A DNA stretch of 64,000 nt from Longimicrobiales bacterium (lineage in GTDB: Bacteria > Gemmatimonadota > Gemmatimonadetes > Longimicrobiales > Gaopeijiaceae), in contig OX638356.1 in NCBI GenBank assembly GCA_951813395.1, positions 2,740,501 to 2,804,500 on the forward strand, written 5' to 3'. Shown here one piece after another: positions 14,765 to 29,055 of this stretch (position 1 is the first letter of the stretch; each line of letters begins with the position of its first letter). The notes below the pieces were generated by a model. That model ran no database searches, was not told where the DNA came from, and saw nothing but the letters and a program-made list of their open reading frames with translations. The translations under genes were made by a program, and so were the position numbers.

Positions 14765-15780
14765 TGCCGGACGTGTTCTCGGTTGGGACGGCCAGGGCGG
14801 CCAGCGGTACGCACGCCAGAGGCGCGATCCCGGTGGGTCTCGACCCCTCCGGGCGGATGCGCGAGATCCCGGTCCTGATCTGCCGGGGTGAGGCGGACGG
14901 TCCTGTCCTCTGGATCAATGGAGCGACGCATGGAGATGAGCCCGAGGGCGCGCTGTCCATTTTCAAGCTCTTCGAGGACCTGCGGCCGGACGAGCTGCGC
15001 GGGACGGTGGTCGGCGTTCCGGCCATGAACGTCCCCGCGTTCGAGGCCGGGAAGCGCGGCGATCCGCTGGACACGTTTTCGCACGACATGAACCGGATTT
15101 ATCCCGGCAGCGCCGACGGCTACCCTACCGAGCGGGCGGCGTGGGCGCACTGGGAGGCGATGCGCGACGCCTGCGACCTGCAGATCGCGATCCACTCCGG
15201 CGGCGAGCACTCGTACCTGGCCCACATGATCTTCGCGGCCGACAATCCGCCCAGCCTGGAGCTCGCGGCGGCGATGGGTCCGCAGTGGGACCTGGTGTTT
15301 CGGAGCGGTGTCGGCGGCGCCAACCCGTCGTCGAAGATCGCCGAGCGCGGCAAGGCGGGGATCACCGTCGAACTCGGCGGCAACTGTCGCACGCTGACCG
15401 CGGATTTTCATGCGGTGGCTGAGGATTTGGCGGGAAGCTACGCGAACGTAATGCGGCACTATGGCATGCTCGACGGCCACGCGCGCTACGCGGGGCGCCT
15501 GCGGATGGGCCACCAACGGGCGCTGCTGGCGCCTGCCTCCGGAATGTGGGTCGGAAGCGCGGACGTGCCCTTCGAAACGGAGATTCCCGCCGGGACGCCG
15601 CTGGGGCGCGTTTACGATCTCTACGGCGACGTTCAGGCCGAGGTCGTCGCACCCGCCGACGGGGTCGTGTTCGGGCTGCGCTCCCGTCCGTCCGTGCTGG
15701 CGGGCGAGTGGTGCTGCTTCTTCGGGATTATCGAGGAGGTGCGGGAGAACCGGCCTGCTACGGCAGCGTCGCCGGGCTGA
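14761..15780 (+). CDS. Succinylglutamate desuccinylase/aspartoacylase-family zinc amidohydrolase
   Basis: 339 residues from ATG 14761, which overlaps the previous stop. It belongs to the AstE/AspA family of M14-like zinc carboxypeptidase folds that remove acyl groups from N-acyl amino acids. NGATHGDEPEG gives the first zinc ligands (His, Glu), SHDMNRIYPG is the substrate Arg/Asn block, and LQIAIHSGG supplies the third zinc His. KAGITVELGGN and a C-terminal beta domain (IPAGTPLGRVYDLYGD) follow. It may deacylate N-acylated or cyclic products made by neighbouring amidohydrolases. Its last 23 bp overlap, tail to tail, the hydantoinase gene on the other strand. Confidence 0.82.
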   Translation: MMPDVFSVGTARAASGTHARGAIPVGLDPSGRMREIPVLICRGEADGPVLWINGATHGDEPEGALSIFKLFEDLRPDELRGTVVGVPAMNVPAFEAGKRGDPLDTFSHDMNRIYPGSADGYPTERAAWAHWEAMRDACDLQIAIHSGGEHSYLAHMIFAADNPPSLELAAAMGPQWDLVFRSGVGGANPSSKIAERGKAGITVELGGNCRTLTADFHAVAEDLAGSYANVMRHYGMLDGHARYAGRLRMGHQRALLAPASGMWVGSADVPFETEIPAGTPLGRVYDLYGDVQAEVVAPADGVVFGLRSRPSVLAGEWCCFFGIIEEVRENRPATAASPG

Positions 15781-17191
15781 TCGCGCTGCGGGCCGCCCGC
15801 CTGCCCCTGCCCCGCTCGGCCACCGCCTCGCCCCCGTCCACGATCACTTCGCCGCGTGACAGGGTCCAGGTGGGGAAGCCGCTGACTCGCATCCCCTGAA
15901 ACGGACTGTAGTCCACGGCCGAGTGGAGCGCCGCCGCGTCGATCACGACCTCGGCATCCGGATCGACCACGATCAGGTCGCCGTCCGCGCCCACGTCGAG
16001 CGTGCCCTTGCGCGGATGGAGGCCGAAGATGCGCGCCGGGTTTGTGGCGGCAAGCTCCACGAACCGCTGCGGCGAGATCCGACCGGTCTTGACGCCGTAG
16101 GTGAACAGCAGGGGCAGCCGGGTCTCGATGCCCGGCAGGCCGTTCGGAATGCGGGTGAAGTTGCCGCGCCCCGTCGTCTTCTGGTCGTGGTACCGGAAGG
16201 GCGCGTGATCCGAGGATACCTGCTGAATCGAACCGGCTTCGAGCGCGGTCCACAGCGCATCGCGATGGTCGACGGTTCGCATCGGGGGGCTGCAGACGAA
16301 CTTCGCCACCTCGAACCCGCCCTCGGCGTCGTAGACCGAGTCATCGAGGACGAGGTACTGCGGACAGGTCTCGGCAACCACCGGGGCCCCCGCGGCCCGG
16401 GCCTCGGCGACGTGCCGCGCCGCGCCCGCCGACGTCACGTGCGCAATACACAGGGGCGCGTCGACGAGTCGGGCCAGCATGATGGCCCGCTGCGTCGCCT
16501 CGGCCTCTACCTCCGGCGGCCGGCTGGGGGCATGGAACGCGGGGCCGGTCTTGCCGGCCGCAAGGTGACGCTCGATCAGCCAGGTGACGGCGCAATCGTT
16601 CTCGCAGTGGGCATACACAAGCCCCCCGTTGGCGCCGCCGACCTCCAGCAGCCGCAACAGCCCGGCATCGTCGACGATCTTGTCTCCGTAGGTCATGTAA
16701 ACCTTGAAGGATGGAAACCCATCTTCAATCAGAACAGGTATTTCATCCATCACTTCCTCACGTACGTCCGTAACGATGGTGTGGAAGCTGTAGTCGATGA
16801 TGGCGTCGGGTTCGATCTCGGCGAGACGGCGGTCGCGGGCGTGCAGCATCGACTCGCCGCGGCGCTGGAGGGAGAAGTCGACTATTGCGGTGACGCCCCC
16901 GCACGCGGCCGCGACCGTGCCCGTGTGAAAGTCGTCGGCGGTGGTGATTCCGAGCCGGTCGATGGGATGGGCGAGGTGCGTGTGCGTGTCGATCCCGCCG
17001 GGCATCACCCAGTGGCCGCGCGCGTCGAGGATGCGGGCACCGCGACGCTCGAACGTCTGGTGGTCGAACCCGCCGCCGGACGGCGAATCCGGCACGATCG
17101 CCGCGATGCGCCCCTCCTCGATGAGCACGTCGGCGCGCTCCATGCGGTCGGCGGTGACGATCGTGCCGCCCTTGATGAGGATATCGGTCAT
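15758..17191 (-). CDS. Dihydropyrimidinase/D-hydantoinase
   Basis: 477 residues from ATG 17191, which overlaps the upstream aminotransferase stop (ATGA). Cyclic-amidohydrolase TIM barrel with a binuclear zinc site: DTHTHLAHP (His70, His72), the lysine to be carboxylated in FPSFKVYMTYG (Lys163), YAHCEND, LCIAHVTSAG and the Asp in VSSDHAPF. The enzyme opens hydantoins, dihydropyrimidines or related cyclic ureides to N-carbamoyl acids. As last gene of a six-gene minus-strand operon with aminotransferase, dehydrogenases and a membrane protein, it probably serves breakdown of a cyclised or N-carbamoylated amino acid. Allantoinase or another ureide hydrolase remains possible. Confidence 0.87.
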   Translation of the reverse strand: MTDILIKGGTIVTADRMERADVLIEEGRIAAIVPDSPSGGGFDHQTFERRGARILDARGHWVMPGGIDTHTHLAHPIDRLGITTADDFHTGTVAAACGGVTAIVDFSLQRRGESMLHARDRRLAEIEPDAIIDYSFHTIVTDVREEVMDEIPVLIEDGFPSFKVYMTYGDKIVDDAGLLRLLEVGGANGGLVYAHCENDCAVTWLIERHLAAGKTGPAFHAPSRPPEVEAEATQRAIMLARLVDAPLCIAHVTSAGAARHVAEARAAGAPVVAETCPQYLVLDDSVYDAEGGFEVAKFVCSPPMRTVDHRDALWTALEAGSIQQVSSDHAPFRYHDQKTTGRGNFTRIPNGLPGIETRLPLLFTYGVKTGRISPQRFVELAATNPARIFGLHPRKGTLDVGADGDLIVVDPDAEVVIDAAALHSAVDYSPFQGMRVSGFPTWTLSRGEVIVDGGEAVAERGRGRRAARSAISPATLP

Positions 17192-18366
17192 GGCTCCAGC
17201 TTGTTGGTGAAGTCTTCGATTCGTTCCATCGCCTCGTGGATCCGTGCCTCCGGGGCGAGCAGCGAGACGCGCACCCAGCCGCGCCACCGCTCCCCGAAGG
17301 AGTTCCCCGGGAACATGAGCACGCCCGCTTCGTCGAGCAGCCGGTAGCAGAATGTCTCGGCGTCCATGCCCCAGCGGGAAACATCGGCCCACATGAACAG
17401 CCCTCCCCCGTGCGGGCCGTGTGGAATGCCCGCCCGCGCGAATCCGGCCATCAGGGCGCGGCGCCTGGCCCGGTAGCGCGACTGGAAGGCCGGGCGCGGA
17501 TCGGGGTCCGCGTCGAGCGCGGCGAGCGCAGCGTACTGCGAGAACGACGGGCAGGGGCCCGAGGTCGTGCTCTTGATCGCCTCGACGGCATCGATGAACG
17601 CGGCCGGCCCGATCAGGTAGCCCACCCGGAAGCCCGTCATCGCGTAGGCTTTGGAGAAGCCCGAGAGCACCACGCCCCGGTTGCGGGCGCCCTCGGCGGA
17701 CAGGAAGGAGAGGAAGGGTTCGTCGCCGAACACGACATCCTCGTAGATCTCGTCGGAGAGAACGACAAGGCCGAGCTCGGCGGCGGCCCGCGCGATCGCG
17801 TGCACGCCGGCGGGCGCGACGCAGGAGCCGGTGGGGTTGGAGGGATTGACGAAGACGAGAATCCTTGCACCCCGGGCCCTCTGTCGCAGATCGTCGCCGT
17901 CCAGGTGGAACGGCAGATCTCCGCCCGTGGGAACGGGCACGATCTCGCCGCCCGCGACCCCGATCGCCTGGTCGTACGAGCTGTAGCGCGGGTCCTGGCA
18001 GGCAACCCGGTCACCCGGGTCGACCAGGGCCAGCATGGCCAGGAACAGCCCCTCCTGGGCACCGTTCGTGATGGCGATCTCGGTGGCGGGGTCCACCGCC
18101 ACTCCGCGCTCGCGGGCGTAGCGCGCGGCGATGCCCTCGCGTAGCGACCGCAGGCCTCGCACCGGACCCGGACCGTCGCGGGGTGCTCCGGCCGCGAAGC
18201 GGGCGAGGCCGCCCTCGATGATGGCGGCGGGTGTGTCGAGATCGGGGTCGCCGCGTCCCAGCGAGATGACGTCGGAGCGGGCACGCGCCAGGGCCATCAT
18301 CCGGTAGCGGAGCGAGGTGGCCCGTTCTCCCTTGCGACGGGCGGCGCGGCCGGCGTCGGGTTTCAC
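17188..18366 (-). CDS. PLP-dependent class I/II aminotransferase
   Basis: 392 residues from GTG 18366, which overlaps the stop of the gene before it (GTGA). Fold type I aminotransferase with all hallmarks: ISLGRGDPDLDTP near the start, ITNGAQEGLFLAML, VFVNPSNPTGSCV, LSDEIYEDVVF (PLP-binding Asp and Tyr) and the Schiff-base lysine in [17 protein letters not shown], then WVRVSLLAPE with the substrate-carboxylate Arg. It resembles aspartate/aromatic aminotransferases, and a similar enzyme lies at 26624-27808. The preceding, translationally coupled gene encodes a shortened, lysine-less relative, an unusual pairing. Confidence 0.9.
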   Translation of the reverse strand: MKPDAGRAARRKGERATSLRYRMMALARARSDVISLGRGDPDLDTPAAIIEGGLARFAAGAPRDGPGPVRGLRSLREGIAARYARERGVAVDPATEIAITNGAQEGLFLAMLALVDPGDRVACQDPRYSSYDQAIGVAGGEIVPVPTGGDLPFHLDGDDLRQRARGARILVFVNPSNPTGSCVAPAGVHAIARAAAELGLVVLSDEIYEDVVFGDEPFLSFLSAEGARNRGVVLSGFSKAYAMTGFRVGYLIGPAAFIDAVEAIKSTTSGPCPSFSQYAALAALDADPDPRPAFQSRYRARRRALMAGFARAGIPHGPHGGGLFMWADVSRWGMDAETFCYRLLDEAGVLMFPGNSFGERWRGWVRVSLLAPEARIHEAMERIEDFTNKLEP

Positions 18367-19037
18367 GGCCTCGCTCCCAGAACCCACAGCGCCGCCCTCT
18401 GGGACGGGGCCGGCGAGCAGATGGACGAGGCCTGCTTCCACCTGGTGATACCGGACAGGGTCTCGGGTGCCGCGGCGACGAAGCCGAGACGGAACGGGCG
18501 CATCGCGCCGAGTCCGTCGAGCGAGCCGATGACGATGCCCGATTCATGGCCGGCGGACGCGGACGCGGGCAGGCCGTGCGGATCATCGGCGCGGAACAGA
18601 CGATCTCCGACGACATCGACCCAGGGCGCCGGAGCCGGGCCCGCGACTGGCGGTTCACTCCTGCCGATTCCCGCCCACGCGAGCAGGGCGTCGTGACGGT
18701 TCAAGCGCCCGCCGAGGACCCGAACCTCTACGCCGGAGCCCTGGGCCAACAGCGTCACGAAGAGCGACTCCCCTTCACCGGCCGTGATCAGGACGCCGTC
18801 GGGACCGCGCTCGGGGTACCCGATGCTCGGAAGAGCCAGCCCGACGAGGCGCCGCAGCTCCAGCATGCCCGGGCGGTCCGGATAGTGCGTCTCGCCCGCG
18901 AGCAGGTGGTGGCGCAGGCTGTCGAGCAGGCCCGGCGTCGGGACGGGCGCCGCACTGTCGACCGCACCGAGGCCGCGACACGCGTCCAGCGCCGTGCGAG
19001 CGCGCCAGGACAACCCCGACTCCACCGCCCCCTTCAC
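18363..19037 (-). CDS. Degenerate aminotransferase-like protein (pseudoenzyme?)
   Basis: 224 residues from GTG 19037, overlapping the SDR stop upstream and the true aminotransferase start downstream by four bases each. The N-terminal half resembles the first part of class I aminotransferases (THYPDRPGMLELRRLVGLAL, VLITAGEGESLFVTLLAQG). A later stretch resembles the cofactor-lysine region and the following helix (GSLDGLGAMRPFRLGFVAA, then WKQASSICSPAPSQRAAL). The usual SK(A/x)(F/Y)AM is DGLGAM here, so the Schiff-base lysine is gone, and the NPxNPTG and DE(I/V)Y blocks are missing, making it about 170 residues short. The frame is intact and fully coupled, so it is more likely a translated non-catalytic protein than a recent pseudogene. 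Function unknown. Confidence 0.6.
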   Translation of the reverse strand: MKGAVESGLSWRARTALDACRGLGAVDSAAPVPTPGLLDSLRHHLLAGETHYPDRPGMLELRRLVGLALPSIGYPERGPDGVLITAGEGESLFVTLLAQGSGVEVRVLGGRLNRHDALLAWAGIGRSEPPVAGPAPAPWVDVVGDRLFRADDPHGLPASASAGHESGIVIGSLDGLGAMRPFRLGFVAAAPETLSGITRWKQASSICSPAPSQRAALWVLGARP

Positions 19038-19861
19038 GGCCCGCTCTCCGGCCCGTACTCGGCGACCTCACCCGCGCGGCGAACGACGCCCTCCGGCCCC
19101 CACCTCTCCAGGGCCTGCGTGAGGACATGCGCGTCGAAGCGGCGCCCGGTCACCTCACCACGCAACCCGGCCAGAAACACGAAGGCGGGCGCCAGCTGCG
19201 CGGGATCCTCCCAGCGCGCCCGGGTCGCAGCGTCTTGCCGCTCCGCGTAGCGGCGCGTGAGCGAAGTCGGCTTGAGGTGGATCCCCGGCGTGACCGCGTT
19301 CACGCTCACCTGGGTCCCGGCCAATTCAAGAGCGAGACAGCGCGTGAACGCTTCAATCCCGAACTTCGACGCGCAGTACGCCGTCTGCGCCGCGAATCCC
19401 TCGACCCCTGCCCGGGACGACACGTTCACCACCGAGCCGCCGTTCTCCTGCAGCATCGGGAGCAGGTCGCGCGTCAGGAAGACCGGCGCTTCCAGATTCA
19501 CGCGCATCGTGCGGTCCCAGTGCGCCCGGTCAAGCGCCTCGATCGGCCGCCGCTCGAGCACGCCGGCGTTGTTGACAATGACACGCAGGTTGTCGGCTTC
19601 GCGAGCGACTCGCCGCACCAGGCGGTCGCGTCCATTCCGGCGCGACAGGTCGGCCACGCAGACCCCCGCCCGCCCGCCCGCCGCACGGATCCGCGCGGCG
19701 GTCCACTCGAGTTCTTCCGCCACCTCCGCCGCCAGCAATACTCGCGCACCCGCCGCCGCAAGTGCGGCCGCGACGCCGCTCCCCAGTCCGCGCCCGGCGC
19801 CCGTGACGAGCACGTCAACGCCCTTGACGCTTTCAACGCGGTTAGGTTGGACCGGATGCAT
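19034..19861 (-). CDS. Short-chain dehydrogenase/reductase (SDR)
   Basis: 275 residues. Classical SDR Rossmann fold: cofactor loop VTGAGRGLGSGVA, VADLSRR, NNAG motif in VIVNNAGVLERRP, catalytic Ser in VVNVSSRAG, and YCASK (Tyr-xxx-Lys) followed by VSVNAVTPGIHL. It oxidises or reduces an alcohol/ketone with NAD(P). It sits between the DUF819 membrane protein (16-bp gap) and the aminotransferase-like gene (4-bp overlap) in the minus operon. It could supply or consume a keto acid for the aminotransferase; the substrate is not predictable. Confidence 0.88.
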   Translation of the reverse strand: MHPVQPNRVESVKGVDVLVTGAGRGLGSGVAAALAAAGARVLLAAEVAEELEWTAARIRAAGGRAGVCVADLSRRNGRDRLVRRVAREADNLRVIVNNAGVLERRPIEALDRAHWDRTMRVNLEAPVFLTRDLLPMLQENGGSVVNVSSRAGVEGFAAQTAYCASKFGIEAFTRCLALELAGTQVSVNAVTPGIHLKPTSLTRRYAERQDAATRARWEDPAQLAPAFVFLAGLRGEVTGRRFDAHVLTQALERWGPEGVVRRAGEVAEYGPESGP

Positions 19862-19877: not shown

Positions 19878-21107
19878 TCAGCCCAGCAATGCGCTCACGA
19901 ATCGGGCGCACGCGAAGCCCAGGTAGTTCCCCAGTGCATACCCGAAGATCCCGACGATCACCGCAGGCGCCACCAGCCTGTGCCACTTCATCGCCATGCC
20001 GATCGCAAGCGCCGATCCCGGCCCGCCGATCGCCGCCTGGCTTGCGATGGAGACCGTGGGAAGGTCGATGCGGAACAGCCACCCCAGCCCGTACGCGAGG
20101 GCGACGTGGATGCCGATGATCGCAATCATGAAGCTGAAGATGGGCACGCCGGCGTCGACCACCGTCGCAAGATCGGAGGCCGCCCCCAGCGCGATGAAGA
20201 AGATGTGCAGCGCGAAGTAGGAGAGCACTTCGGCGCCCCGCAGCCGCCTGACCCACGGCAGTTGAGCCACGATGAGCGCGATGGTGGTAAGCCACAGCAC
20301 TTCCGGCACTTCGCTCAGGAACTTGACCAGTGCGTACAGCGGCGCAGTATCCGGCATGGTGGCGAGTGGCTGGCCAAAGGCATTGCTGACGAGGCGCGCC
20401 ACCCACAGGGCCGCGAGAGGGAGCGCACCCAGAACGGCGAAGTCGGTGATGCTGATGTCCGTATCGGTCCAGCGGCGACGCAAGGCCTCTTCGTCGGGCA
20501 CCTGTTCGTCGTCTCCGCCGGGGCCCCCGGACGGAACAGAAGCCCGGCCCGGACCACAGCGGCGCAGGAACATTGCGGCCAGCACCCCCGCCAGCCACAC
20601 CTGCAGCAGGAGATAGGGCACCGTGGACAGGTTGTCGGCCAGGGCCGCTGCGGCGAAGGTGCTCGGCTCGACCTCAAGCCCCTGGCCCACGGCTGCGAAG
20701 TTCATACCGCCGCCCGCGAAGGCCGCCGAGAACGCCCCGGCCAGTTTCCATGTCTCGGGACCGACCCATCCCGCCATGGTCGCGCCCGCCACCGCACCCC
20801 CGACAAGGCTGCCCCCGCAGGCCACGAGATAGGCGACCAGCAGCGGCCGCCCCGCATGGGCAAGCTCCTTCATGTGCGTCCCCATGATCACGAGCACGAT
20901 CGCGTAGGGGATCGCGAACGTGAACACGCCCTCGTGCACCGGCCCCGTGTGCTCGATCACGCCCACGTTTGCCAACGTGATTCCGAGCAGCGTGCACACC
21001 ACCGCGGAGCTGATCTTCCTGATCGGCTCGTAGCGCTCCTCGAGCCAGCGCGCAAACGCCACCACGGCCAGCATGAACGCCAGGACCAGTACGGGTTCTC
21101 GTATCAT
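19878..21107 (-). CDS. DUF819 (YjcL-like) multipass membrane protein
   Basis: 409 residues with about ten hydrophobic segments and a charged loop in the middle (DDEQVPDEEALRRRWTDTD). The two glycine-rich repeats AAFAGGGMNFAAVGQGL and SQAAIGGPGSALAIGMA, with GIFGYALGNYLGF near the end, identify the DUF819 family of putative secondary transporters or permeases. Its place between a 2-hydroxyacid dehydrogenase (4-bp overlap) and an SDR in a catabolic operon suggests uptake or export of the organic acid or amino acid handled by that operon. No member has a firmly established substrate, so the transport role is inference. Confidence 0.82.
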   Translation of the reverse strand: MIREPVLVLAFMLAVVAFARWLEERYEPIRKISSAVVCTLLGITLANVGVIEHTGPVHEGVFTFAIPYAIVLVIMGTHMKELAHAGRPLLVAYLVACGGSLVGGAVAGATMAGWVGPETWKLAGAFSAAFAGGGMNFAAVGQGLEVEPSTFAAAALADNLSTVPYLLLQVWLAGVLAAMFLRRCGPGRASVPSGGPGGDDEQVPDEEALRRRWTDTDISITDFAVLGALPLAALWVARLVSNAFGQPLATMPDTAPLYALVKFLSEVPEVLWLTTIALIVAQLPWVRRLRGAEVLSYFALHIFFIALGAASDLATVVDAGVPIFSFMIAIIGIHVALAYGLGWLFRIDLPTVSIASQAAIGGPGSALAIGMAMKWHRLVAPAVIVGIFGYALGNYLGFACARFVSALLG

Positions 21108-22141
21108 GACGTTCTCGTGGCAGCGGCCAGGTTCGTGACGATGTCCCGCGCCATTCCGGCCTGTCCCCCGCCGGTGCCGCCGCCCACGTGTGGCGAGAGA
21201 AGCACGTTGGGGGCGTCGAGCAGCGGGTTGCCCTCCGGCAGCGGCTCGTCGACGAACACGTCCAGTCCGGCGCCCGCAATCCGCCCGTCCCCGAGCGCGT
21301 CGACCAGCGCGGCCTCGTCGACCAGGCCGCCGCGGGCGGTGTTGATCAGGATCGCGTCGGTCCTCATGAGGCGTAGCGCGTCAGCGTCGATCATCTCCTC
21401 GGTGTGTTCCGTGTGCGGAGCATGAAGGCTGACCACATCGCTTTTCGCGAGCAGCTCCTCGAAGGGGAGGTAGCGCACGCCCGCCATGGCCTCGTATTCG
21501 CGCGGCAGCCGCGAGCGCTTGCAGTAGACCACGTTCATGTCGAACGCCTGGGCGCGGCGGGCGACTTCGAGGCCGATACCGCCCAATCCCACGAGGCCGA
21601 GGACCCTGCCGTGAAGCTGGTGGACGTCCGGATAGCCCAGCCAGTTGAAGGCGATCTTCCGTTCGGTCGTCCGGACCGGCTCGACGCCCAGGGACCTGTA
21701 GGCGGCATCGCGCGTCCCGAGATGGCCCGGGACGAGCTTCCGATAGAGGCCCAGCATGAGCGCGATGGTCTGTTCGGCGACCGCGATCGCACCGCGGTGC
21801 GGCAGGACCGACACGGGAACGTCCGCGGCCGCCGCGGCTTCCATGTCCACCGCCCAGGGCGCCCGCCCCTGCACCTGAATCAGCCGGAGCCGGGGCACGG
21901 CCTTGATGAGCTCGCCCCCGATCCGGCGCGTGGCGGTCAACAGCGCATCCGCGCCCGCGGCCGCGTGCACGAGCTCCGCGCCATCCAGCTCGTCTCCCCA
22001 GACGAATTGGATGCCGGCTTCGTCCGCCGTGCGTTGAAAGAGGGCGCGGATCCAGTCCGCCAGAGGCTCGATGTGGAGGGCTCGCAATGGGGTAACGACG
22101 GGTTGAAGTGGACTGAAACGGCGACGGAAGTTATAACCCAT
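21104..22141 (-). CDS. D-2-hydroxyacid dehydrogenase
   Basis: NAD-dependent enzyme of the D-isomer-specific 2-hydroxyacid dehydrogenase family, interconverting 2-keto and D-2-hydroxy acids. Seen: Rossmann motif LVGLGGIGLEVARRA, SLHAPHT, catalytic Arg in INTARGGLVDE, Glu in VFVDEPLPEGNPLL and the His in LLSPHVGGGT. ATG 22141 gives 345 residues, but the first ~18 have no counterpart in the family. TTG 22087 (before RALHIEPLADW) would match better, and ATG 22141 overlaps the divergent ATG at 22140. Neither has a clear ribosome site. First gene of the six-gene minus operon. Confidence 0.86.
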   Translation of the reverse strand: MGYNFRRRFSPLQPVVTPLRALHIEPLADWIRALFQRTADEAGIQFVWGDELDGAELVHAAAGADALLTATRRIGGELIKAVPRLRLIQVQGRAPWAVDMEAAAAADVPVSVLPHRGAIAVAEQTIALMLGLYRKLVPGHLGTRDAAYRSLGVEPVRTTERKIAFNWLGYPDVHQLHGRVLGLVGLGGIGLEVARRAQAFDMNVVYCKRSRLPREYEAMAGVRYLPFEELLAKSDVVSLHAPHTEHTEEMIDADALRLMRTDAILINTARGGLVDEAALVDALGDGRIAGAGLDVFVDEPLPEGNPLLDAPNVLLSPHVGGGTGGGQAGMARDIVTNLAAATRTS

Positions 22142-22427
22142 GACAATGGACCGCCGACAGTTCACCGCATCCGCCGCCACCGGCGCAGGCGCCATGGCCC
22201 TGCTGTGGCAGCAAGCCTGCACAGAGGTTGCGGACACCGGCGAGGTCTCCGCCGAAACCGCTCGCACGCTCCTCGATCATCAGGGGCCGCGCGGCATCTA
22301 CGAAACCGCCGAGGAGCTGGACCGCCTCAGGGCCGCGCTCGCCAACATGATCAACGTGCAGCGCCAGTTGCGCGAGTTTCCCCTGGACCCGGACGAGCCA
22401 CCCCTCACCGTGTTCTGGAGGGGCTGA
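22140..22427 (+). CDS. Tat signal and N-terminal part of an amidase, cut off by an in-frame TGA
   Basis: 95 residues beginning MTMDRRQFTASAATGAG, a twin-arginine signal, followed by a helical segment (ELDRLRAALANMINVQRQLREFPLDPDEPP) of the kind that precedes the catalytic domain in Tat-exported amidases. It stops at TGA 22425-22427. The very next in-frame codons continue into the amidase catalytic domain, which has its own GTG start two codons later. Homology therefore suggests one original gene. Either a stop mutation or sequencing error separates the two parts, or they are now two coupled polypeptides. On its own this piece has no enzymatic motif. Confidence 0.6.
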   Translation: MTMDRRQFTASAATGAGAMALLWQQACTEVADTGEVSAETARTLLDHQGPRGIYETAEELDRLRAALANMINVQRQLREFPLDPDEPPLTVFWRG

Positions 22428-23805
22428 CAGGTGCAGGAAGACATCCTCTTCCTCACGGTGAGGGAACTCGCCGACCTCCTGGAGAGCGGCGCGGTCACCT
22501 CCGTCGACCTCACGCAGGCCTACCTTGACCGTGCGGACGCGCTCGACGTCCCCCCGTTCGACCTGCCCAGCGAGCCGCGCACGGATCACGACGGCAAGCT
22601 CGCCACCATGGTCACGATCGCGCGCGACCACGCGCTCGATGCCGCCGAGCGCGCCGACGCCGAACTCGCCGCGGGGCGCCGCCGCGGCATCCTGCACGGG
22701 ATTCCCTACGGCGTGAAGGACCTGCTCGACACGCGCGGCATCCGCACCACGTGGGGATCGGGGATCTTCCGGGACCGCGTCCCGGACCGGAACGCCGCCG
22801 TGATCGACCGGCTGGAAGACGCCGGCGCGGTCATGATGGCCAAGATGTCTCTGGGCGAGTTCGCCGGCGGCAACACCAGTTCCGCGCTCAATCCGTGGAA
22901 GCTCGACCGCACCAGCTTCGGGTCGTCGAGCGGCACGGTGTCGGCGGCGGTGGCGGGGCTGATCGGCTTCGGCATCGGCACCGAGACGGGCGGCTCGATC
23001 GTCTTCCCGGCCTCCGCCGTCGGCGCGTCCGGTCTGCGCCCCACGTTCGGCCGCGTGAGCCGCTTCGGCTGCATGGCGCTGTCGTGGAGCCTGGACAAGA
23101 TCGGCCCCGTCGGCCGCTCGGCCGAGGACTGCGGGCACGTCCTGCAGGAGATCGCGGCGCACGATCCGCGCGACAACGCCACCGTCGACCGCCCCTTCGC
23201 CTTCCGCCCGGACCCGGGCCCGATGCGCGGCCGCCGCCTGGGCGTCCACCGGGCCGAGTTCGAGCTGTCGGGTTCCGAAGACACCCGCCGCGTCTTCCAG
23301 GAGGCGCTCGACGTCTTCGCGCAGATGGGGGTCGAGGTCGAGGACATCGAACTGCCGTTGCGGCCCACGGGCGCCCTCTTCACGACCATCGTCACGGTCG
23401 AGAGCGGCACCAACTTCAAGTCGCTCTTCGACGACGGCCGCGCCGCCGGGATGTTCTCGTTCAACGAGGACCGGCGCGCCGGCTGGATGGCCGGCCGCAT
23501 GATGCCCGCCGCCGACTACCTGACCGCCCAGCGGATCCGCAACCAGCTGGTGCGGGAAGCCGACGAGATCCTGTCGCGCTACGACGCGGTGATCGCCCCC
23601 ACGTGGCCCAACGGCGCCGCGATGCGGGAGGTGCGCGACGGCTGGCCGATTCCTGCGCGCAACGAGTGGGAGCCGCCCGGGGAGGTCAGCGCGCGCACCC
23701 CCCGGCTCAACTACATCGCCAACCTGGTCGGGCACCCCGGCCTGGCGATTCCGTGCGGCTTCGACGAGGACGGCCTGCCGCTGTCGCTGCAGATCGTGGG
23801 CTCGC

Positions 23806-25517
<1,712 letters not shown>

Positions 25518-25521
<4 letters not shown>

Positions 25522-26627
25522 CGGGCCGGTGCCCGCGGCGGCGCGAAGCGGTCCCGCAGCTCGGCGATCGCCACCCATCGCCCGCTCTCCAGCGACTCCA
25601 TGCAGCCATGCACCAGGAGGAGGGTCTCCAGGTGATCGCCGGCTGTAGTCACAGGATCGGACTCCCCGTGAATGGCCCCCAGGAACTCGGCGAGAAGCGC
25701 CCGTGTGTCGTCCACGAACGGCACACAGGGCTCGAGCGGCTCGGCGACCGGCGTCTCGGCGTCGGCATCGCTCTTGAAGTTGGGCCCGCGCAGCCCCAGC
25801 CCGCGATCGAAGTCCACGCGCACGAGATCCTCGAACTGCTCGCGCTGAATGAGTGCGCCGCGCTCGAAATCGCTGCGCCAGCGGAAGTCCATCCGGTTCC
25901 ACGCCGCCGTCCAGGTGCCCAGATAGTTCGCGCGCACCCCGTTCTCGAAGCGGAAAAGGACCGACACGCAGCAGTCGCCCTCGTAGGTGCTCCACGATGG
26001 CCGCCACGTGTCGCACACCAGCGAATCGACCTCCGCGCCGTAGCAATGCCGCAGCAGGTCGAAGTGGTGGATGCTCTGCTCCAGCAGCATGGGGTGCGCC
26101 ATCGACATGACGTAGTCGTTCAGGTCGTCCCTGTTGCCGTCGCGCTGTCTGTTGTAGGTGAAGTGCGCATGACTCAACGCGCCCAGCTCCCCGGTGCGCA
26201 CGGTGCGCCGGATCCGCTGCGACGAGGGGAGGTAGCGGAAGTTCATCCCGACGAGGAGGTGGCGCCCGGCCGCGTCCGCCCGCGCGATCAGGTCGGCGAC
26301 TTCGCCGAGGTCCTCCGAGAGCGGCTTCTCGCACAGCACGTGGAGGCCGTGGGCCAGGGCGCGGCTGACGAGGCCGTGATGGGTGGCGGGCGGGGTCGCG
26401 ATGACGACGGCGTCCGCCCGGGCTTCGGAGCCGACCAGCCCTGCGGCGAAATCGGGCGCGACGAGGGCCCCCGGGGCGTGATCGTCGCGGGCGCGCCGGG
26501 CCCGTGCTTCGTCGTGGTCCATGATCCCGGCCAGCGTCGCGTCGGGGGCTTCGGCGATGACGCGCGCCCACATGGTCCCGCGTACGCCGGCGCCGACGAG
26601 GAGGATGCGGATGGGGTCCCGGCTCAC
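25518..26627 (-). CDS. Gfo/Idh/MocA-family oxidoreductase
   Basis: 369 residues from GTG 26627 (GTGA overlap). N-terminal Rossmann domain with [17 protein letters not shown] and [14 protein letters not shown], then the conserved lysine in [17 protein letters not shown] and GMNFRYLPS, followed by the alpha/beta substrate domain with [13 protein letters not shown]. Family members oxidise or reduce sugars, inositols, amino sugars or related polyols with NAD(P). It lies inside the peptide-transporter operon between the aminotransferase and the ATPase, so it probably acts on an imported amino-sugar-like or amino-acid-like ligand. Confidence 0.88.
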
Positions 26628-27808
26628 GACGGCGCAGCCGTTCGCGCCCCGCGCACCCGTGCGACAAAGCGCGCCATCCGCGTCAGCGCCTCCTCCATGG
26701 ACTCGAACGCCGACAGCAGCGTGATCCGGATGTGGCGGTTCGCCGGGTCGGCGAACATCGTGCCGGGAAAGACCATGACCTGTTCCCGGCGCAGCAGTTC
26801 GAGACAGAAGGTCTCGGCGTCCAGCCCCGTGCTGGAGATGTTCGCGTAGACGTACATCCCGCCGCCGGGGCGTCCGTACGAGATGCCCATCTCGTCGAGG
26901 CGGCGGAGCACGAGAGCGAGCCGCCGCTCATACTCGGCCAGCATCGAGGCGACCGCCGCGTCACCCGTCTCGAGGGCCGCCAGCGCCCCGCGCTGCAGGG
27001 CCGGCGGCGTGCAGATGCTCAGCGTGTGCTTGATCTCGACGGCCGACTCCATCATCCAGGCGGGCGCCGCGAGATAGCCCACGCGCCACCCGGTCATCGC
27101 GTACGCCTTGGAGAAGCCGTTCACGGTGACGGTGCGTTCGAGCATTCCGTCGAGGGCGCCCATGCTCACGTGTTCGGCGCCGCCTAAGATCAGCTTCTCG
27201 TAGATCTCGTCGGAAATGACCAGGAGGTCGTGCTCCACGGCCAGCCGGGCGATGCGCTCAAGTTCCCCGCGCGGGGTCAGTCCGCCGGTGGGGTTGTTCG
27301 GGTTCGCGATCACCAGGAGCTTCGAGCGCTCGGTGAGGACCTCGCGAATGGCGTCGGCCCTGAGCGCGTAGTCGTCCCCTTCGAGCGTCGGCACGTCCAC
27401 GATCCGGCCGCCCGCCAGCTTGACCATGTAGTCGAAGGCGTTGAAGCGCGGGGCCTGGAGGACGACCTCATCACCGGGATCGACCAGGGCCAGGATCGAG
27501 ATCAGGAGCGCTTCCTGGGCGCCGTTGGTGACGATGACCTGGTCGGCCGAATACTTAACATTATTGTTAAGTTTCAGCTGAAACGCGATCGCTTCGCGGA
27601 GTTCCGGGAGTCCCGGAGGCGGGCTGTAGTGGGTGTAGCCGCCGATCAGGGCGTCCGCGCCCGCCGCGACGATGGCGGGCGGCGTCTCGAAGTCCGGGTC
27701 GCCCCGGCCCAGCGCGATGATGTCGTCGAGCCCGCCGGCCAGTTCGAGCATGCGGGTGCGAAAGCTCGACTTCACGCTGACCGCGCGCGCGGCGAGGTGG
27801 GCGCTCAT
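26624..27808 (-). CDS. PLP-dependent class I/II aminotransferase
   Basis: 394 residues from ATG 27808, whose A is the last base of the previous stop (TGATG). All fold-type-I aminotransferase blocks are present: [58 protein letters not shown], the Schiff-base lysine in [17 protein letters not shown], and [10 protein letters not shown] near the end. It is closely similar to the enzyme at 17188-18366 in motif sequence. It probably transaminates a product released from the transported ligand. A short AT-rich patch (TTAACAATAATGTTAAG on the coding strand, near 27560) interrupts otherwise G+C-rich codon use. Confidence 0.9.
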
Positions 27809-29055
27809 CACACCCCCGGCCGCGAGTACAGGCAGCACCCGCGCACGAACGTCATCCGCACCCGCTCCAGGTCGCCCAGATCCTCCAGCGGGTTGCCGTC
27901 CACCACGATCACGTCCCCCTCCTTCCCCGCCTCCAGCGTGCCGATCCGGTCGTCCAGCCGGTTCATGATCGCGGCCTCCCGTGTCGCGCTCATGATCGCG
28001 GCGTGATTGTCGGCCACCACCCCCACCTCGATCATGAACTCCATCTCCGGGACCACCACGCCATGCCGCACCGCGGGACTCCCCGCGTCGGTCCCGAACA
28101 CGATGCGCACCCCGGCCCGTGCCGCCCGCAACAGGCCGTCGTAGCGGCTCCTGTCGGCGACCGCGTGCTGCCGCTCCCGGATCTTCCATTCGGGGATGTC
28201 GTACGTGCGCGCGACCTCGGGCTTCGACTGGATCACGACGGGCGAGAAGGTGGTGACGATCGGCACGCCCTTCTCCACCAGCTTGCCGATGGTCCGGTCC
28301 GACATGCTGCCGCCGTGTTCCACCGTGTCGACGCCAAAGTCCACGGCCCGCTCGATCGCCGCGTCGAAGGTGGCATGCGCGGTGATGGGCAGTCCGCTCC
28401 GGTGCGTCTCGTCGACGATGGCCTCGAGCTCCGCGTCGGTGAACTCCAGGAGGTCGTGGCACATCATGATCTTGATCAGGTCGGCGCCGTCCTTCACCTG
28501 ATCCCGCACCGCGCGCCGCATCTCGTCGGCGCCGGTGGCCTCGCGGCAGCACCAGTAGGTGTGGCCGCCCGTCTGCACTATCGCCTCGGCGCAGATCAGC
28601 AGGCGCGGACCCGCGAACACCCCCTGCTCCACGGCCTGCTTCGCGAACGCCCCGCTCCGGTTCATCCCCAGGTCGCGCACCAGCGTGATCCCGGCCCGCA
28701 GGTTCGCGAGCATGTTGGCCGCCGCCTTGTACGCGCTGATCTCGGGCGCGTCGTGCATGGACTGGGCGGCAAGGTCGTGGATGCCGTCCCATGCCAGGTG
28801 GGCGTGGCTGTTGATCAGGCCCGCCAGGATCGTTCCGCCCGCCGCGACGACCGCCCGACCCTCCCCCGCCGGGGCCCCCGCACCCCACGCCCCGACCGAC
28901 ACGATCCGCCCACCCGCCAGCGTGACGTGGCCGTCCTCGATCACCTCGTCCCCCACCCCCGTGATTACCCGGCCGCGGAGCGTGACCGATGCGGGTTCGC
29001 GCGGAGCCAGGTCCTGCAGGACCGGCTGAAACTTCCAGGCTGGTGCTTCGGGCAT
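27808..29055 (-). CDS. Amidohydrolase-family metal hydrolase
   Basis: 415 residues without a signal peptide, so cytoplasmic. Metal-dependent TIM barrel: first ligands in NSHAHLAWDG, bridging lysine in LIKIMMCHD, His in PITAHATFDAA and TVEHGGSM, catalytic Asp in IVFGTDAGSPAV, then the composite-domain end IGTLEAGKEGDVIVVDGNPL. It resembles the imidazolonepropionase-like/Xaa-Pro dipeptidase group. It sits 15 bp after the glycosidase-like gene and one base before the aminotransferase, suggesting it frees an amine- or carboxyl-bearing group from an imported compound which the aminotransferase then processes. Confidence 0.86.
   Translation of the reverse strand: MPEAPAWKFQPVLQDLAPREPASVTLRGRVITGVGDEVIEDGHVTLAGGRIVSVGAWGAGAPAGEGRAVVAAGGTILAGLINSHAHLAWDGIHDLAAQSMHDAPEISAYKAAANMLANLRAGITLVRDLGMNRSGAFAKQAVEQGVFAGPRLLICAEAIVQTGGHTYWCCREATGADEMRRAVRDQVKDGADLIKIMMCHDLLEFTDAELEAIVDETHRSGLPITAHATFDAAIERAVDFGVDTVEHGGSMSDRTIGKLVEKGVPIVTTFSPVVIQSKPEVARTYDIPEWKIRERQHAVADRSRYDGLLRAARAGVRIVFGTDAGSPAVRHGVVVPEMEFMIEVGVVADNHAAIMSATREAAIMNRLDDRIGTLEAGKEGDVIVVDGNPLEDLGDLERVRMTFVRGCCLYSRPGV

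Follow-up and report, generated by a model that had tools for sequence, protein, structure and literature searches.

Fold-type-I aminotransferases are homodimers with two shared active sites, and in ordinary class I members of known structure (1j32, 1gd9, 1o4s, 1bjw) the interface tyrosine, Tyr70, and the lysine are carried by the same chain. The locus described here, in a 64,000-nucleotide stretch of a Longimicrobiales genome (contig OX638356.1; hereafter the window), raises the question of what a short aminotransferase-like protein devoid of this lysine might do beside an aminotransferase that keeps it. The first-pass annotation of the window had proposed a pseudoenzyme subunit or a regulator of the paired enzyme. 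Our analysis supports that reading and favours a subunit over a separate regulator because of the conservation of the short gene, its co-occurrence with the neighbouring enzyme, the purifying selection acting on it and, most of all, the fact that this enzyme has lost the very trans tyrosine that the short protein keeps. On comparative sequence evidence, we consider it quite probable that the product of the short gene and the neighbouring enzyme, AT1, make up an obligate heterodimeric class I aminotransferase, with the short protein as its catalytically dead subunit and AT1 as the active one.

The short gene is a genuine open reading frame (18363..19037, GTG start, 224 residues) on the minus strand, which the annotation had left unstated. 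Transcription runs from a D-isomer 2-hydroxyacid dehydrogenase (21104..22267) through a DUF819 membrane protein (19878..21107) and an SDR family oxidoreductase (19034..19861) to the short gene, and on to AT1 (17188..18366, 392 residues) and a D-hydantoinase/dihydropyrimidinase (15758..17191; TIGR02033, 529.5 bits against a cut-off of 393), all on the minus strand. The four-base overlaps reported earlier between the short gene and both the SDR gene and AT1 can be read directly in the window sequence, as can one between AT1 and the hydantoinase gene; GTGA is common to the short gene and AT1, and ATGA marks the overlap of the hydantoinase gene with the AT1 stop. The same four-base overlap between short-gene stop and AT1 start recurs in 20 of the 21 other loci with both genes (the exception is L034), and the neighbourhood from dehydrogenase to hydantoinase is kept in all three genera that carry the short gene.

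A truncated aminotransferase relative kept by selection

The product of the short gene is related to class I aminotransferases but is truncated and has no lysine; its homology to them is seen only by NCBIfam profiles, a PDB profile search and the fold. No Pfam family, PF00155 included, matches the protein at E up to 1, while NCBIfam profiles register weak aminotransferase similarity in two segments (best GntC, E 4.5e-11). Identity to all aminotransferase groups is about 19–21%. A tree built from shared columns unites the short genes in a single long-branched clade in the vicinity of AT1, a second aminotransferase (AT2) and related enzymes, without singling out a parent among them; as long branches meet there, we do not rely on it. 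GntC, the L-enduracididine-forming PLP enzyme (NF041364; structure 8fft), is the best-scoring named family for both the short protein and AT1; we rejected it as a label, the scores being 42.3 and 264.9 bits, respectively, against a cut-off of 415. AlphaFold2, given an alignment of the short protein's own orthologues only, returned a model (pLDDT 75.5, pTM 0.74) in which residues 34–206 fit the aminotransferase large domain by Foldseek and VIA-align (1j32 residues 45–268, Z 10.2, 157 residues, rmsd 3.8); as modelled, the protein has the large-domain fold of fold-type-I PLP enzymes.

What the protein has lost is mainly the cis half of an active site. As the annotation had reported, the Schiff-base lysine is missing, the position reading SLDG with Gly175 (codon 18513..18515) in its place; the orthologues read carry Gly or Ser here, and a lysine in none of the 23. 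The absence of the NPxNPTG block was likewise borne out, and the DE-Y block is unrecognisable in the alignment. Gone or variable are the G38 motif, N194, P195, K258 and the C-terminal domain with R386, the position of R266 holds R, S or D, and some 90 residues that would follow the interface loop, including the Arg386 domain, are absent.

The same annotation held that the N-terminal and cofactor-region helices of class I enzymes were retained. We refine this: the retained part is mainly a pair of trans-interface elements, GETHYPDRPGM and WKQASSICSPAPSQR, rather than the cofactor pocket. The first reads GETHYP[DAE]RPGM in all short proteins and places a tyrosine in register with Tyr70 in 23 of 23; in the window its HYPDRPGM portion spans residues 51–58 (18864..18887), with the invariant Tyr52 as the Tyr70* equivalent by both the orthologue and the aminotransferase alignments. 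The second, WKQASSIC[SA]P[AS]PSQR across the short proteins, corresponds to the second interface (trans) loop at residues 200–217 (WKQASSICSPAPSQRAAL, 18387..18440; 15 of 18 positions invariant) and aligns to a segment that we take to line the opposite active site in aminotransferase dimers. An invariant EGE motif and further conserved positions in the vestigial site would suit a protein that keeps its fold and moonlights as a sensor for an amino acid or another ligand. Such a role is highly improbable for a protein that has no lysine, that has exchanged its phosphate-binding positions for Glu and Gly, and that has acquired no further domain, DNA-binding or otherwise.

All 23 orthologues that we read, of 223–289 residues, lack the small domain as well as the lysine and NPxNPTG, and they share 59 invariant positions. 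These are dense in residues 35–62 (16 of 28), 80–98 (9 of 19), 165–189 (10 of 25) and 200–224 (17 of 25), with 4 of 66 falling in residues 99–164. Selection on the short gene, which the annotation had proposed as a check, follows the same map: by the NG86 method applied pairwise and summed over eleven pairs, the gene as a whole has a dN/dS of 0.29, with 0.10 in residues 35–98, 0.43 in the linker (99–164) and 0.13 in residues 165–224. Single pairs mostly give 0.14–0.32, two of them (L031/L033 and L031/L035, dS about 0.1) yielding noisy values of 0.72 and 0.53; AT1 is under tighter constraint (0.06–0.21). The short gene is thus kept by selection and is not decaying. Its low identity to any full-length aminotransferase and its long deletions might have been those of a decaying or frame-damaged duplicate, an explanation that has virtually no chance of being right and that we reject, given that 23 orthologues from three genera share one architecture, that dN/dS is near 0.1 in the conserved blocks and that internal stops are absent from every copy.

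We searched 84,980 species genomes with one sequence as the query, which might overlook distant relatives beyond Gemmatimonadota, and recovered 22 further short-gene loci, so the observation goes well beyond chance. The loci lie in Gemmatimonadota MAGs except for four labelled Gammaproteobacteria (L038, L039, L042 and L044), and this label is probably wrong, because by coordinates they are the genomes G396, G300, G252 and G128, assigned to the window's own family by the genome search. Within that family 24 of 121 genomes, in three genera, carry the short gene (10 of 23 in the window's own genus), and none was found outside those genera among 395 genomes sampled across the phylum. Full-length, lysine-bearing orthologues, which the annotation had named as the sign of simple decay, appeared neither in the species-genome scan nor among the 395. 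A search for the pair in other genomes, also suggested there, found the two genes together: AT1 (E below 1e-220) occurs in 23 of the 121 family genomes, and the short gene occurs in the same 23 and in G163, where the 82,670-base contig (L051) ends about 140 bases past the short gene (match up to 82,528). The aminotransferases ranking next after AT1 are distinct paralogues with about 40% identity. DUF819 shows the same pattern in the genus (10 of 23), so the cluster seems to be present or absent as a whole.

The interface tyrosine of the partner enzyme

AT1 has the credentials of a working enzyme. It scores 217 bits against PF00155 (cut-off 19.7; E 4.7e-64), which identifies it as a class I/II aminotransferase, and its cis residues are intact: the Gly of GRGDPD, NPSNPTG, DEIY, K239, R247 and the C-terminal Arg. 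It resembles ordinary class I aminotransferases in its fold and in all of these residues, as the short protein does in its large-domain core. Where AT1 departs from them is at the interface tyrosine. In aspartate aminotransferase Tyr70 is among the ligands of the cofactor phosphate (PMC6715241), and a review describes the corresponding class I residue (its Y65), conserved in about 90%, as touching the phosphate of the PLP bound by the opposite subunit (PMC9309667).

We aligned AT1, the short proteins, the aminotransferases of the same genome with their relatives and four solved aminotransferases, and then added 29 aminotransferases from the order. The Tyr70 position is Tyr in 66 of 66 aminotransferases other than AT1, a count not to be read as universal because, apart from the four solved structures (1j32, 1gd9, 1o4s, 1bjw), the sample comes mostly from one bacterial order and the review figure is about 90%. 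In AT1 the class I interface tyrosine is absent from 22 of 22 sequences, and no tyrosine occurs anywhere in that loop (residues ~60–71; 18154..18189 in the window, minus strand); L048 and L050 have one in the helix preceding the loop, away from the Tyr70 position. Between GRGDPD and [VI]RGL the AT1 sequences have anywhere from 26 to 36 residues, and this is the only internal site of length change in AT1, barring one single-residue position elsewhere. In the AT1 model (pLDDT 72.5) the loop, residues 62–69, is one low-confidence stretch beside seven others. Among the aligned sequences, the losses are therefore complementary: the trans tyrosine is gone from AT1 and invariant in the short proteins, and the cis residues the other way round. 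One further member of the alignment, a class I aminotransferase-like gene of the same genome (contig 1, ~2896244–2897287), keeps the lysine and has Asn at the Asp222 position, Met at that of Tyr225 and Ile at that of Asn194.

These observations bear on whether the short protein need be a structural partner at all. AT1 might instead be an active homodimer in which Tyr70 has been replaced, with the short protein acting as a regulator or chaperone transiently at the dimer interface, for instance by blocking or stabilising the apo-enzyme; AT1 keeps all its cis residues, an invariant Tyr21 in the N-terminal helix and its own interface loop, likewise conserved (KxTTSGxCPxFSQ). We regard this as unlikely, for neither the length nor the sequence of the AT1 tyrosine loop seems to be under constraint, both trans elements are nearly invariant in the short protein, and a mere regulator would need no conserved residues lining an active site.

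The partner could also be a different one. Carriers of the short gene have AT2 (26624..27790, minus strand), an enzyme with all catalytic residues and 40% identity to AT1, within the same region, and the interface loop of AT2 resembles the SICSPAPSQR of the short protein, so that the short protein might pair with AT2, or belong to a non-PLP complex of its own, its position before AT1 reflecting operon order only. By the alignment, however, AT2 has its own Tyr70, and relatives of AT2 are present in genomes without the short gene, where AT1 never is; we give this explanation little credence.

The proposed heterodimer and its precedents

We suggest that AT1 and the short protein form a natural obligate heterodimer whose shared site is divided residue by residue, AT1 having lost the trans tyrosine and the truncated pseudo-subunit keeping the trans half only, an arrangement that is probable on present evidence. 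AT1 would give the cis half, with the lysine, the PLP pocket and the small domain, and the short protein would dock in the place that, in an ordinary homodimer, belongs to the second subunit; because it has no small domain, it would have to bind by the large-domain interface only. Its Tyr52 and its 200–217 loop (WKQASSIC) would complete the AT1 site, whereas the reciprocal site around Gly175 would be dead and vestigial, leaving one working site per heterodimer. Such an arrangement would account for the variability of the tyrosine loop in AT1 and for the loss of the small domain from the short protein. Physical association, a need for the short protein in catalysis and the single site are what we infer from sequence. 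Several features weigh against the heterodimer: the invariant Tyr21 of AT1 might replace Tyr70 in a homodimer, the interface loop of AT1 is conserved although in a heterodimer it would face the dead site, the short protein would have to bind without a small domain, and the two low-divergence pairs gave the higher, noisy dN/dS values.

The closest working precedent, by analogy, would be serine palmitoyltransferase (LCB1/LCB2, or SPTLC1/SPTLC2), a eukaryotic, membrane-bound alpha-oxoamine synthase of fold-type I in which a subunit with the PLP lysine is joined by a homologous dead one, LCB1 being a full-length homologue. The present locus likewise has a homologous lysine-less subunit paired with an active one, a pairing visible in genes and residues. 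A single active site per heterodimer is the working hypothesis for LCB1/LCB2 (PMC3794620). In contrast, the pair here is a bacterial class I aminotransferase, with a subunit cut to 223–289 residues and devoid of the small domain. Bacterial glycine decarboxylase is also of fold-type I and is likewise built from homologous subunits, GcvPA and GcvPB, only one of which has the PLP lysine. The two are listed as subunits of that enzyme (PMC6522883). It differs in family and reaction, and both of its subunits keep full domains.

For ACC synthase, as cited in PMC5258695, complementation between mutants indicated that both subunits build each site (Tarun and Theologis 1998), so a half-dead subunit can, on that account, serve in trans. 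The AT1/short-protein locus looks like a natural version of that experiment, which, as cited, used full-length enzymes, either mutated in the laboratory or combined as heterodimers of isoforms, and no evolved obligate pair. A 2022 review states that little is known of heteromultimers from monomers of different aminotransferases (PMC9309667), and we found no description of a heterodimeric or pseudo-aminotransferase, or of such a split-enzyme arrangement, in openly licensed papers, which is not proof of absence. If the proposal is correct, the pair would be a natural example of two duplicates that have decayed in complementary ways around a common active site, one of them being reduced to what its partner requires, and would offer a short template for the splitting of PLP enzymes. 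At the level of residues it predicts that Tyr52 of the short protein serves the site of AT1 Lys239.

Surroundings of the cluster

A gene for an Ldh2-type dehydrogenase and one for an AstE/AspA-type hydrolase are convergent to the cluster, and an amidase gene is divergent from it. Because a hydantoinase, an amidase, a deacylase-type hydrolase and dehydrogenases adjoin, we would venture, as a weak guess, that the substrate route is the breakdown of a cyclic ureide or amide to an amino acid and on to a 2-oxo acid. In the relatives L130, L031, L038 and L045 some 800–900 bases separate the AT1 and hydantoinase matches, room for an extra gene without a counterpart in the window. AT2 adjoins an M24 peptidase-like gene (27808–29055), and the M24–AT2–29071 block also occurs in genera without the short gene. 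Directly before the amidase gene (22431–23900, plus strand) lies a gene for 95 residues with a twin-arginine-like start, MTMDRRQFTASAATGAGAMALL (22140–22427, plus strand), and these two genes are conserved together across all three genera.
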